NCBI GenBank assembly: GCA_016234735.1
Contig: JACRAN010000255.1
Coordinates: 1 to 44,683, forward strand
DNA from: Bacteroidota bacterium
GTDB taxonomy: Bacteria; Bacteroidota; Bacteroidia; Chitinophagales; Saprospiraceae
DNA length: 44,683 nt
Direction: 5' to 3'
Made by a program: the position numbers and the translations under genes
The notes under the pieces: generated by a model
Told to the model about the DNA's origin: nothing
The model's input: only the letters and a program-made list of their open reading frames with translations
Database searches by the model: none
In this document: positions 6,180 to 36,869 of the stretch, one piece after another
Numbering within the stretch: the first letter of the stretch is position 1
Layout of the letters: the number at the start of each line of letters is the position of its first letter

Positions 6180-6881
6180 TTACAGCTTGCCAAGCCGTTC
6201 GATTTCTTGTTCAATATTTTTCAGGACATCCTTGTTGGCTATCTCGCCGTCAAGGCTGAAAACGATAAAAACACTGCCTCCAAACTCGGCTTCAAAGTCC
6301 CGAAAACTTGCTTTCATCCTTTCGGAAGCCGAATAGTTGCCAAAGTTTGACTTTGCGGTTACTGGTTTGATTTGTATGCCAAATGCTTTTTCACCGACAT
6401 AGCCGAGGTAATCAATATCGCCAGCATGGTCGAGTTCAGCCGGGCTTTCTTCAAATCTTACTGCGGGATATATCTGGGCCAACCCGTCGTTGACCACCGA
6501 TTTTTCCCGAACATAGCCGTCGAAAGTGCGGTTGATAGTGAGGTTATGGATGTAGTCGATACAATCTTGCAACGTGAGTTGGTGAAAGGCTTCCTGCCAT
6601 TCGGGTATCACGACTTCGGTGATTTTTTCGTGCAGGCGAATACCAAGTTCAATTAAACTTTCTTTGGTGATTTTGAAGGTATTTTTTCCGTCGGTGTGGG
6701 CATTTTCAAAGTACCACTGCTCCCATTCTTGAATGGTTTTTGGTTGACATTGCCGGATGAGTGCCATGACCGTACCTACTTTGTTGGGTCTTGAAAGTTG
6801 ATAGGTTTGGCAGGCGTAGTTTAAGACTTTCTCTTTCTTGCCAAATTCCAACGAGTATTTTTGGGCTTGCTTTTTAGCCAT
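6180..6881 (-). CDS. MjaI-like type II restriction endonuclease
   Basis: A 233-residue protein resembling the MjaI restriction endonuclease family. A PD-(D/E)XK-type core is visible: D155 and D157 in GDIDYLGY and a QIK triad element at 170-172 within GEKAFGIQIKP. The start overlaps the methyltransferase stop by 8 bases (ATGGCTAA), indicating translational coupling with the methyltransferase first, a usual safe order for such systems. MjaI itself recognises CTAG; applying that specificity here is inference from family resemblance. The two-gene unit sits between kmo and lspA and reads AT-richer than its neighbours, consistent with acquisition. Confidence 0.75.
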   Translation of the reverse strand: MAKKQAQKYSLEFGKKEKVLNYACQTYQLSRPNKVGTVMALIRQCQPKTIQEWEQWYFENAHTDGKNTFKITKESLIELGIRLHEKITEVVIPEWQEAFHQLTLQDCIDYIHNLTINRTFDGYVREKSVVNDGLAQIYPAVRFEESPAELDHAGDIDYLGYVGEKAFGIQIKPVTAKSNFGNYSASERMKASFRDFEAEFGGSVFIVFSLDGEIANKDVLKNIEQEIERLGKL

Positions 6882-8166
6882 TTTTTAAAGAGTTGAATTT
6901 TGTCCTGTACTTGTACTCAAACGAGTTATCAACCAAAACCAACCCCGCCTTGATCAAGTGGGCGTTCAGGAAGGTTTTGTTCTCTAAGTACAGGTATGCC
7001 ATCAGGTTGTTTTCGCTATCATGTTTGGTCACGTCATATTTCAGGAATACCCTTTTCCCCTTTGTTTTTGATACCAAAAACTCGCTGGCATTTCCGTTTT
7101 TACGACGGTCTTGCTTGATGCCAATCAACCTTACCGTCAAACCATTGCTCAACCGGATCAACTCCGGGCTGATGACTTCCTTGACGGTGAAATACTCGTC
7201 CCGTTGGGTTTTTCCGTTGGCATCCAGCTTCGAGCCGAACTGCAATTTTTTGACATCTATCTTTTTATCCAGCTTGTGTGTATCCACAAACACGTACGGC
7301 AGTTCCTTGATTTTGGCATTGAAGTCCGGCAATGGGTGGGCTTGTTTCACGAAATCAAACCTTGCACCGTCGAACAGCATGTTTTTATCAACGCCAAGTT
7401 TTTGCTTGATAATGGGAATAAAATCAGGGTTGATCTCGTACCCGCACGAATTTCGGCCAAGACTTTTTGCCACCAACGAAGTCGTGCCGCTGCCGAGGAA
7501 GGGATCCAGCACATTCTCTCCTGGAAATGAGAACATTTTAATCAGCCGTTTTGGCAATTCTTCGGGAAACATGGCCAGGTGGTTGTCCTGGCGTACGCCG
7601 CTGATGTACCAATGCCCGTTGAAGTAGGTGTTCCACTCCTCGGTGGTCATGGCCGATTGCTCCTTTTGTTCGGGAGTTGGTTTGGGCGCTGTTCCCTGTT
7701 TTTTGAAGAGGAGGATGTATTCGAAATCCAATTTTACGATGCCATTGCGGGGATACGGGAAGCTGCCCATGATGCTGGCACCGCCGGTGGTGTTCATGGT
7801 GGTGGTTTTTTGCCAAATGATGGAACCCATGAAGTCGAAGCCAACAGCTTCGCAAAACCGGATGATTTCGCTGTGGATGGGGATGATTTTGTACCGCCCG
7901 TAGTAAACCGAGCGGGCAAACTGGTCGCCGATATTGATGCACAGGCGGCAGCCTTTGTGTAACACCCGATGACATTCCGCCCAGGTCAGGTTCAGGTGGT
8001 TGATGTAGGTTTCATAATCGTCATGGAAGCCAATCTGGTTCTCCGTGCCATAATCTTTCAGTTGCCAGTAGGGAGGGGAGGTCACCACCAAGTGGATGCT
8101 CTCGTCTTTCAACTCCCCCAAGTGGCGGCTGTCGCCATTGATTATTTTATGGTAAGTACCCTTCAT
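6874..8166 (-). CDS. N4-cytosine DNA methyltransferase with SNase-like tail
   Basis: The modification half of the R-M pair. Residues 1-255 form a beta-class amino-methyltransferase: motif IV TSPPYW (29-34), typical of N4-cytosine enzymes, precedes AdoMet-binding motif I DPFLGSGT (221-228), with a target-recognition region between. Residues 325-430 read as a staphylococcal-nuclease-like OB fold: VRLIGI (345-350), KGKRVFLKYD (369-378), MAYLYL (389-394), NAHLIKAGLVLV (401-412). By alignment to SNase, Arg35 is kept (R346), but Asp40, Glu43 and Arg87 become K351, R354 and N387. The tail is therefore probably non-catalytic and may bind DNA or the endonuclease. The gene starts 50 bases after the lspA stop and has a TACCTTAG box (8182-8189) upstream. 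Confidence 0.85.
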   Translation of the reverse strand: MKGTYHKIINGDSRHLGELKDESIHLVVTSPPYWQLKDYGTENQIGFHDDYETYINHLNLTWAECHRVLHKGCRLCINIGDQFARSVYYGRYKIIPIHSEIIRFCEAVGFDFMGSIIWQKTTTMNTTGGASIMGSFPYPRNGIVKLDFEYILLFKKQGTAPKPTPEQKEQSAMTTEEWNTYFNGHWYISGVRQDNHLAMFPEELPKRLIKMFSFPGENVLDPFLGSGTTSLVAKSLGRNSCGYEINPDFIPIIKQKLGVDKNMLFDGARFDFVKQAHPLPDFNAKIKELPYVFVDTHKLDKKIDVKKLQFGSKLDANGKTQRDEYFTVKEVISPELIRLSNGLTVRLIGIKQDRRKNGNASEFLVSKTKGKRVFLKYDVTKHDSENNLMAYLYLENKTFLNAHLIKAGLVLVDNSFEYKYRTKFNSLKNG

Positions 8167-34979: not shown

Positions 34980-35885
34980 CTAATCCATAAACCTCCAAAT
35001 ATCTTCAAAAACCAATTTGTCAAACGTTTTGATGTGGTCTTTTAAAATGTTTTCCGCCAACATATTGGGCCGAATATCGCAGTAATAAACACCGTCCAAA
35101 GGGTTCAACTTAACCGTGTAACCTTTGAAATGCCCAGGCAAGAATGTCGAGTTGATGCCATACTCATTCTCCTTTTTTGTGTTTTTACGCTGCACATCGT
35201 TGAGAAAAATGGCAATGTGCGGAATGGCAGTTTCAGTCAGCCTGTTGTATAGAAATTTGTCCACGAAAATCTTGTCGAGCCTGTCTTTGCTGGATGTTTT
35301 CACCGAACCGAGTATCTTGATTTGCTCATCTTTTGAAATAATCAAGTCGTGTTGGTAGCTCATCTTGAAAGCAACTTCTCCATCCACCTCCACAGGGACT
35401 TGTACGATTCCAGCCTCACATTTCAAACCTAATTCTTTTACAATCAATCGAATGAAACGCTCAAACAAATCACCGTTCAGCTTACGGGCTGTGTTCGACT
35501 TCCCTGCTGGAAGTGCATCAAGAGCTGCTCCAATTGACTGCTGAATAGTATAAACGGAATTGTTCAAATTATCTCTTTGATAGGCCGATGGTGCTTTTGT
35601 GTTATTGGCATCCCGTAGCATTTTCAAAAACTCTTTCCTATTCTTCTCAAATTCTTCTGCCGAAAACATAAGTCGGTTGTTGATTGGGCGTGTAATCTGG
35701 TAACCCGCCGATTTGGCATATTGATAGAAGCAGTAGTGGTTTTCGTTTTGAGACACAATGGTCGCCTGTAAATTACCAGGAACAGCTATGTATTCCAGGT
35801 AGTCACGACAAAAGTCAACATACCCTTGAAGCGTTTGGAAACGAGATTTGTCTGTGACGTTGGAAAGCAATGTTTTCAGGTTCAT
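34980..35885 (-). CDS. Type II restriction endonuclease (specificity unknown)
   Basis: 301 residues, overlapping the methyltransferase stop by four bases (ATGA). A PD-(D/E)XK-like core is visible at HDLIISKDEQIKILGSVKTSSKDR: D180 and the SVK triad 194-196, with Ser where Glu or Asp is usual. Acidic residues that could complete the site precede it (LFERFIRLIVKEL, 140-152). I could not place it in a named isoschizomer family. The gene partner and translational coupling make the restriction role likely. It is AT-richer than uvrA upstream. Confidence 0.75.
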   Translation of the reverse strand: MNLKTLLSNVTDKSRFQTLQGYVDFCRDYLEYIAVPGNLQATIVSQNENHYCFYQYAKSAGYQITRPINNRLMFSAEEFEKNRKEFLKMLRDANNTKAPSAYQRDNLNNSVYTIQQSIGAALDALPAGKSNTARKLNGDLFERFIRLIVKELGLKCEAGIVQVPVEVDGEVAFKMSYQHDLIISKDEQIKILGSVKTSSKDRLDKIFVDKFLYNRLTETAIPHIAIFLNDVQRKNTKKENEYGINSTFLPGHFKGYTVKLNPLDGVYYCDIRPNMLAENILKDHIKTFDKLVFEDIWRFMD

Positions 35886-36835
35886 CTGATGGAGGTTCTA
35901 CGTTTGACGTTATCCGAATCAAACTTTACCCAATATTCCAATGGCTTTTGAGCGACACATTCCAAACGTTGAATTGACCATTCAAGATACTGTGGCGACA
36001 GGTCGCAACCCAACCATTTTCGCTGCAATTGTTCTGAACAAACTGCCGTCGTACCAGCGCCATTGAATGGGTCGAGCACGAGGTCGCCTGGGTTGGAGGA
36101 GGCAAGTATGATTTTGCGCAGCAACTCTTCCGGTTTTTGTGTTGGGTGCGGCGTTTTTTCGTTCATGCCGTTACAAGTGGTCGGAATTTCGATGACATCC
36201 TTGGGTTTTGCGCCATTGGGGTGGGGTTCCCATGTATCGTTGCTGCGTTTCCCATTCCCGTACTGGCTCGTTTCCGCTTGCGGGTGAACGGGGTATTTCA
36301 AAGTGTGGTTTCCATAAGGTATGCGCACATCGTCTGTATTGAAGACGAACTGCTTCGACTTGCGGAAATGTAGGATGCTTTCATGCGAGCGCCCCCAATC
36401 GTTGCCGAGGTTCCCCTTGTTTTTATAGTGCCAGATTATCCACCGGACGCTCTTGAAATACTGCATGGCGGGCGCTTGCAAATCGGCTAATATTTCGGAG
36501 AAACCGCAAATATACATTGTGCCTGTTGGCTTCAACAACCGGGCAGCTTCTACAATCCATTTGACAGACCAATCCACATATTCTTGGTGCGAGTCAAAAT
36601 CGTCCCAATCTGCCTTCTTGATATTGTAAGGCGGGTCGGCAAAAACCAAGTCCACCGAGGCTGTTTCCAGCGTTTTCATCCATTCGATGGAATCACCCGC
36701 CCATAATTGGCCGTTCTTGTGCGCATAGGCCAATTGCGGTTTTTGCGGCGAAAAGCTTGTTTCGTCAATATCGAATTTCTCCCCGTTCAGCACCTCGTCT
36801 GCGAAAAGTAGGCCGCCTTGTTCTTGCGTTTTCAT
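35882..36835 (-). CDS. N6-adenine DNA methyltransferase (type II R-M)
   Basis: 317 residues from ATG 36835; a TTG six codons earlier is open too. A beta-class enzyme: motif IV DPPYNIKKADWDDF comes first (about 67-80), then a target-recognition region, PHPTQKPEELLRKII, and AdoMet motif I DPFNGAGTTA (about 255-264). DPPY marks an adenine-N6 methylase. It lies 34 bases after the uvrA stop and is directly coupled to the endonuclease gene. Recognition sequence cannot be deduced by eye. Confidence 0.9.
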   Translation of the reverse strand: MKTQEQGGLLFADEVLNGEKFDIDETSFSPQKPQLAYAHKNGQLWAGDSIEWMKTLETASVDLVFADPPYNIKKADWDDFDSHQEYVDWSVKWIVEAARLLKPTGTMYICGFSEILADLQAPAMQYFKSVRWIIWHYKNKGNLGNDWGRSHESILHFRKSKQFVFNTDDVRIPYGNHTLKYPVHPQAETSQYGNGKRSNDTWEPHPNGAKPKDVIEIPTTCNGMNEKTPHPTQKPEELLRKIILASSNPGDLVLDPFNGAGTTAVCSEQLQRKWLGCDLSPQYLEWSIQRLECVAQKPLEYWVKFDSDNVKRRTSIR

Positions 36836-36869
36836 GGATTGTAGTTTTGACAAATGTCGGGAAAATATT

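Follow-up and report, generated by a model that had tools for sequence, protein, structure and literature searches.

In the available text of PMC5867850, M.MthZI is described as a characterized 4mC methylase of CTAG and is grouped with M.BfaI, M.MjaI and HVO_0794 as beta-type 4mC enzymes. Homologs of HVO_0794 are given there as 303 to 364 aa in length. CcrM consists of an N-terminal methylase and a C-terminal non-specific DNA-binding domain, according to the part of PMC6787082 that is available. As to solved structures, TTHA0409 (2zig, 2zif, 2zie) is the nearest relative of the methylase domain analyzed here, both by sequence (2zie, phmmer E 2e-56) and in a Foldseek search with the model of the full-length protein (2zif, E 2.6e-22). 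TTHA0409 is only 297 aa long and its match stops at residue 277, so there is no space in it for the tail carried by the 430-aa protein.

The window, a stretch of 44,683 nucleotides from a Bacteroidota bacterium, encodes this methylase–SNase fusion of 430 aa on the minus strand (8166..6874; ORF list and Pfam). The stop of the methylase gene is overlapped by 8 nt by the start of a gene for a 233-aa restriction endonuclease of the MjaI type (6180..6881, minus strand; PF09568, E 6.2e-28, 98.1 bits, cut-off 22.7), which also matched the PADLOC model REase_II PDLC03450 (E 7.8e-106). With an RE_MjaI endonuclease (PF09568) adjoining the methylase, the pair has the composition of an MjaI-type system. 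The fusion would be the protective methylase of this two-gene type II restriction-modification system, in which the methylase gene comes first and the endonuclease gene overlaps it. The PADLOC model MTase_II PDLC03259 (423 positions) matched residues 4-424 of the fusion with model positions 2-419 (574 bits, E 3.8e-173). Given this coverage, PADLOC already lists the whole family, with its tail, among the type II methylases.

The methylase domain occupies residues 1-270 (7357..8166, minus strand). PF01555 (N6_N4_Mtase) matched residues 24-254 with positions 1-220 of the 221 in the profile (Pfam, E 1e-43). Motif IV (TSPPYW, residues 29-34) precedes motif I (DPFLGSGTT, residues 221-229), which is the beta order, and the profile match and the motif order together place the domain in the beta class. 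The SPPY motif points to an N4-cytosine product. On this motif rule and the MjaI-type partner, the window methylase is probably of the N4-cytosine type, as the sequence-only reading had claimed; the TSPPYW motif and the PF01555 match agree with that claim. A second ORF in the window (35882-36853, minus strand) has a methylase-like stretch with 38% identity over query residues 195-257.

The target of the window system is likely to be CTAG. This tetranucleotide was found five times in the window against 47 expected. In samples of 14 tail-bearing genomes it was present at 0.27 of the expectation (112 vs 418), compared with 0.67 (505 vs 756) in samples of 14 genomes without the tail. Nevertheless, some genomes without the system were equally depleted (0 vs 21 expected in G292, 0 vs 26 in G253) and the tail-bearing G039 was hardly depleted (24 vs 34), so that CTAG depletion is no proof of the target. 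In the host genome (G000; window plus L168-L170, 70 kb) GATC was found 31 times against 262 expected and CGCG 35 times against 262, which suggests that further restriction systems may be, or may once have been, present in the host.

Residues 323-430 of the fusion (6877..7200, minus strand) were assigned to a catalytically degenerate SNase-fold domain by PF00565 and structure prediction. PF00565 (SNase) matched residues 359-416 (Pfam; E 1.8e-5, 25.6 bits against a cut-off of 21). The NCBIfam model of thermonuclease NucI matched the tail alone at E 1.1e-7, under the curated cut-off of the model. Two alignments, both gathered using the fusion protein or its tail, were searched with the SNase profile: it matched all 65 members of A2 (the window protein and 64 relatives; best E 4.1e-9) and all 33 members of A1 at E ≤0.01. 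Searching the PDB chains by sequence with the tail, singly and as a profile, gave no match. Among nine SNase loci from relatives, L209 was the best match to the tail profile (55.7 bits).

An AlphaFold model of the last 156 residues, made with 72 sequences in the alignment, had a mean pLDDT of 80.7, with values of 85-93 by tens of residues across the SNase part. The predicted order of elements, beta-beta-beta-alpha-beta-beta-alpha-alpha, is that of SNase. The best PDB matches found with Foldseek were staphylococcal nuclease (E 1.4e-7, TM 0.72 by target), and VIA-align superimposed model residues 49-156 on 2f0w with a Z score of 16.1 and an rmsd of 1.6 Å over 107 aligned residues. The tail part of the full-length model (mean pLDDT 76.7) matches SNase as well. 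The tail is thus predicted to have the SNase fold, with a five-stranded barrel and three helices in SNase order. An SNase-like tail fused to the methylase had been read from the letters of the window, with a different predicted fold named as the outcome that would speak against it. The profile match over the cut-off and the predicted resemblance to staphylococcal nuclease bear this reading out, and no other fold was obtained.

The two domains are joined by a conserved linker (residues 275-338; 7153..7344, minus strand) that contains a Lys-rich motif around LDKKIDVKKLQFGSK. Y291, F293, D295, D304, K306, G311 and D315 are identical in all 65 alignment rows. A nearly invariant motif spans residues 285-325 (window positions about 7192-7314) and includes LPYxF and DKKIDVKKLQFGSK. 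In the full-length model, the pLDDT of residues 301-322 was below 50 and the packing of the domains was also poorly modeled. The low-confidence second half of the linker motif may become ordered only when bound to DNA or in a dimer.

To read the catalytic positions, the tail was aligned with six canonical SNases encoded in genomes of the same phylum; these have D21, R35, E43 and R87 in 6/6 and D40 in 5/6. In the window tail four of the five residues are replaced (D21E, D40K, E43R and R87N). The two metal-ligand positions, D21 and D40, are taken by E335 (7162..7164) and K351 (7114..7116), the general base E43 by R354 (7105..7107) and the catalytic R87 by N387 (7006..7008), while R35 is kept as R346 (7129..7131; all on the minus strand). 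The same pattern was found among 99 distinct tails including that of the window: Glu is at the D21 position in 88 and Lys at the D40 position in 89, D40 itself is found in none, E43 is kept in four and R87 in 14, and the R35 position holds Arg in 61 and Lys in 37. Counted per tail, none of the canonical residues is kept in 38, one in 44, two in 15 and three in 2; all five occur together in 0/99. In addition, tails of the family have 6-8 residues in the loop that follows the D40 region, compared with 11-30 in the six canonical SNases. The Glu and the Lys co-occur in 84 of the 99 tails, and this co-occurrence suggests that a pair of the E335–K351 type may form a salt bridge at the former metal site.

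The sequence-only reading had counted three of four catalytic positions as changed and had allowed that a better alignment might restore them. With the six canonical SNases the site is still degenerate, and the count is refined to four of five. The window tail does not hold the set of D21, R35, D40, E43 and R87 that marks an active nuclease, and with the catalytic residues gone, SNase-type nuclease activity of the tail is very unlikely. An active nuclease was rejected on the residue losses and the short loop. Nor is it credible to any real degree that the tail is still a nuclease by means of a rearranged active site. Such an enzyme could make use of R346, and two of the 99 tails (L094, from Thermoflexibacter ruber, and L112) keep R35, E43 and R87 together; against this stand the absence of D40 from every tail, the rarity of E43 and the shortened loop, and it would presumably be harmful for a protective enzyme to carry a free nuclease.

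The tail alignment was searched against one genome per species, and tblastn matches were obtained in at least 461 of 588 candidate stretches. The best 80 of these were fetched; ordinary SNases are possible among the other 381. With three loci from viral contigs added, 83 loci were available. The methylase frame carries the tail in 82 of them, the exception (L120) starting at the end of its contig, part-way through the linker, and an endonuclease of the MjaI kind, whole or partial, lies downstream in 68. Record titles from this search name Bacteroidota, Ignavibacteria, Chlorobiota, Omnitrophota, Spirochaetes and a deltaproteobacterium, among others. Of the 395 genomes searched from the phylum of the window, 63 had a match to the endonuclease profile, above the cut-off in 61 of them, and 73 had a match to the tail at E 0.001; the sole weak tail match that was checked (G002, L083) is an ordinary SNase. 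The tail is kept in 51 of 55 methylase places of the lineage (at least 60% identity over most of the domain), the exceptions being G149, G268, G347 and a broken copy in G201.

The SNase tail is under purifying selection. The median dN/dS was 0.071 for the SNase part (42 of 150 pairs usable) and 0.032 for the methylase domain (89 of 150). These values were calculated on 150 of 450 eligible pairs, of which saturation, a zero or an out-of-range value removed 61 for the methylase, 82 for the linker and 108 for the SNase part. The wide spread and the low dN/dS led us to reject chance, or decay at this one locus, as an explanation of the tail. As the fusion is kept in many bacteria though the cutting site is lost, the tail probably has another job, for example holding DNA.

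A plasmid collection searched with the tail at E 0.001 gave no match. A scan of viral sequences with a single protein found no relative, and a scan with the alignment found three contigs classed as viral (L165-L167) that carry the methylase–SNase gene; L165 has the endonuclease too, and the frame in L167 is broken. In the genus of the window (G000, G395-G407), SNase-profile matches in frames of 430-460 aa were found in four of the 13 other genomes (G397, with a stop, G401, G402 and G403), and the remaining genomes had no SNase-profile frame of the size of the fusion. This patchy presence within the genus suggests gain and loss, or transfer.

Truncated methylase–SNase copies form arrays or repeats in one bacterial family (f18), at L067 (G303:C13:64000-78997), L065 (G311:C43), L066 (G185:C20), L068 (G229:C101) and L262 (G117:C3). 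At L067 the 5' end of the methylase gene is present five times, and its 134-nt upstream region at six places (seven register hits). The cargo between the copies is toxin-antitoxin-like and other, and consists of Gp49 with HTH, RelE with HTH, ParD, AAA_14/DUF4143 and a macro domain. The methylase–SNase gene looks like a recombination platform for a growing defense island.

With a probability of about one half, or marginally more (0.52), we take the tail to be an accessory, non-catalytic DNA-binding domain of the methylase. A bacterial SNase would have become fused to the C-terminus of a widespread methylase lineage, would then have lost its metal site and catalytic residues, and would have been retained as a non-catalytic SNase-fold domain. 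The tail and the conserved linker may bind DNA without sequence preference beside the methylase domain. Such binding could raise the affinity or residence time of the enzyme so that host sites become fully modified, the tail working like the C-terminal DNA-binding domain of CcrM. The net charge of the SNase part is positive in all 65 rows (mean +4.6 in 92 aa), and the mean net charge of the methylase domain (270 aa) is -0.5; it is this positive SNase part, with the precedent of CcrM, that leads us to favor DNA binding. A DNA-binding contribution of the tail had been one of the roles offered by the sequence-only reading, and it would be compatible with these data. The linker is Lys-rich, yet its net charge averages only +1 (from -4 to 5 across the 65 rows), which slightly lowers the confidence in DNA binding.

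The charge and conservation of the tail are also compatible with a role in dimerization or stability. A module of this kind, making no DNA contact, would be constrained with or without an adjoining endonuclease, as was found for the tail, and would keep its fold but not its nuclease site; a linker of near-neutral charge is also in keeping with it. Nevertheless, the positive SNase part in 65/65 rows would be superfluous for such a module and no interface could be predicted, and we consider it rather unlikely. A more specific picture is that of a disarmed nuclease, its metal site apparently filled by the Glu–Lys pair, that the methylase lineage recruited to clamp DNA or to read unmodified or damaged sites, and that sets the extent of host protection in what are probably several hundred species, in Bacteroidota and other phyla; as a whole this picture is quite improbable.

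The tail was shown to follow the methylase rather than the endonuclease. A tail lies within 3 kb on the same strand at 49 of 66 endonuclease places, a count into which 82 of 106 tail places were entered, the 24 weakest or most fragmentary being left out. Thirty loci were fetched by the endonuclease alone (L005-L034); the tail is nearby in 22 of them (in L030 by coordinates) and absent in eight. In a quick tree of 108 endonucleases, the rows of which lean towards the tail as many loci had been fetched by it, tailed methylases occur with endonucleases of two clades that are separated by a deep split. Of the 19 rows in the smaller clade, ten have a tailed methylase upstream on the same strand, five of them derived from tail-fetched loci, and nine have a tailless methylase on the opposite strand. 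Two of these nine belong to a single locus of G347 (L074, G347:C84:1-12000), which is a natural tail swap. At 4651-6036 of L074, a methylase of the same lineage has part of the linker followed by a different C-terminal part without a Pfam match; its neighbors are a 379-aa second methylase and a pair of MjaI-type endonucleases on the other strand.

Copies of the methylase without an endonuclease were assessed in eight stretches from seven genomes. Searching these stretches by tblastn with four endonucleases at E 0.001 gave no match, and six of the seven genomes (all but G260) had no endonuclease match in the search of the phylum genomes. The contig of L257 ends about 370 nt past the methylase, so that its orphan state is derived from the phylum genome search only. 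Four of the eight loci, L257 among them, yielded genes by start pattern for the dN/dS table, and these four comparable orphan copies keep the full tail with a dN/dS of 0.08-0.17.

Loss of the tail was seen in G149 and G268, which share a tailless methylase ending at residue 315. Behind it lies an endonuclease remnant in G149, and none was recognized in G268; the joint loss of tail and endonuclease in the two genomes is probably one event. Their methylase is still constrained (35 differences, 26 of them at third positions; dN/dS 0.10), and the tail is therefore not indispensable for whatever keeps the gene.

These distributions bear on the suggestion, made from the window alone, that the tail senses the partner endonuclease, or restrains it, through protein contact. 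Loss of the tail together with the endonuclease in G149 and G268 is one point in favor of this suggestion, and the same-strand tails at 49/66 endonuclease places are another. It is nevertheless disfavored, since the two endonuclease clades served by tailed methylases are deeply split, tailless methylases also go with one of them, and four orphan copies have a constrained tail. We judge it decidedly improbable that the tail acts in this way.

N-terminal helix-turn-helix extensions of some other methylases repress their operon. By analogy, the tail could bind its own operator or mRNA and repress the methylase–endonuclease operon, and within the mixed endonuclease clade the tail does track the operon layout, with 10/10 tailed methylases upstream on the same strand and 9/9 tailless ones on the opposite strand. 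This layout is, however, confounded with methylase lineage, and orphan copies retain the tail. In the 150 nt upstream of 65 methylase genes, the palindromic 6-mers present in more than nine stretches, counted without a background control, were all A/T. CTAG was not enriched there either, with two sites in total, or 0.21 per kb compared with 0.24 in the flanks. An operator palindrome or CTAG sites upstream of the methylase were thus unsupported in the 65 upstream stretches, and repression of the operon by the tail seems unlikely.

DNA binding by an accessory domain stays our preferred reading of the tail, at the probability given above. If the tail controls DNA affinity, it would provide a simple, testable tuning of the methylase against its endonuclease. 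A nuclease fold stripped of its active site appears to have been reused inside the restriction-modification methylase of a common family, and the natural tailed, tailless, tail-swapped and orphan copies are material for asking what extra methylase domains do. The component domains have been described before, and the family has its catalogue entry as a methylase; a search of the literature on SNase together with methylase found no account of the SNase tail, most subscription papers being out of reach.

Compared with the described systems, the window system resembles M.MthZI, M.BfaI, M.MjaI and HVO_0794 in its MjaI-family endonuclease, its beta motif order and the depletion of CTAG in the host. 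It is set apart by the lengths reported in the available text of PMC5867850, the homologs of HVO_0794 reaching at most 364 aa and the window protein having some 64 aa of linker plus an SNase domain in addition. PDLC03259 describes the same full-length family, and its name and description are silent on the SNase tail. With staphylococcal nuclease and thermonuclease (PF00565), the tail shares the fold over the 107 superimposed residues; its metal-binding and catalytic residues are replaced and its loop is shortened. CcrM differs from the window methylase in its target and in the fold of its C-terminal part. To our knowledge, the CcrM tail is not an SNase. Both enzymes are beta-class methylases extended by a C-terminal domain, and that of CcrM binds DNA (PMC6787082, available text). 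In the available text of PMC7641849, Tudor-SN and the extended Tudor domains are SNase-derived, with mutated catalytic residues, and are kept for other roles. Unlike the methylase tail, these domains are eukaryotic, belong to RNA and dimethylarginine biology and carry a Tudor insertion.
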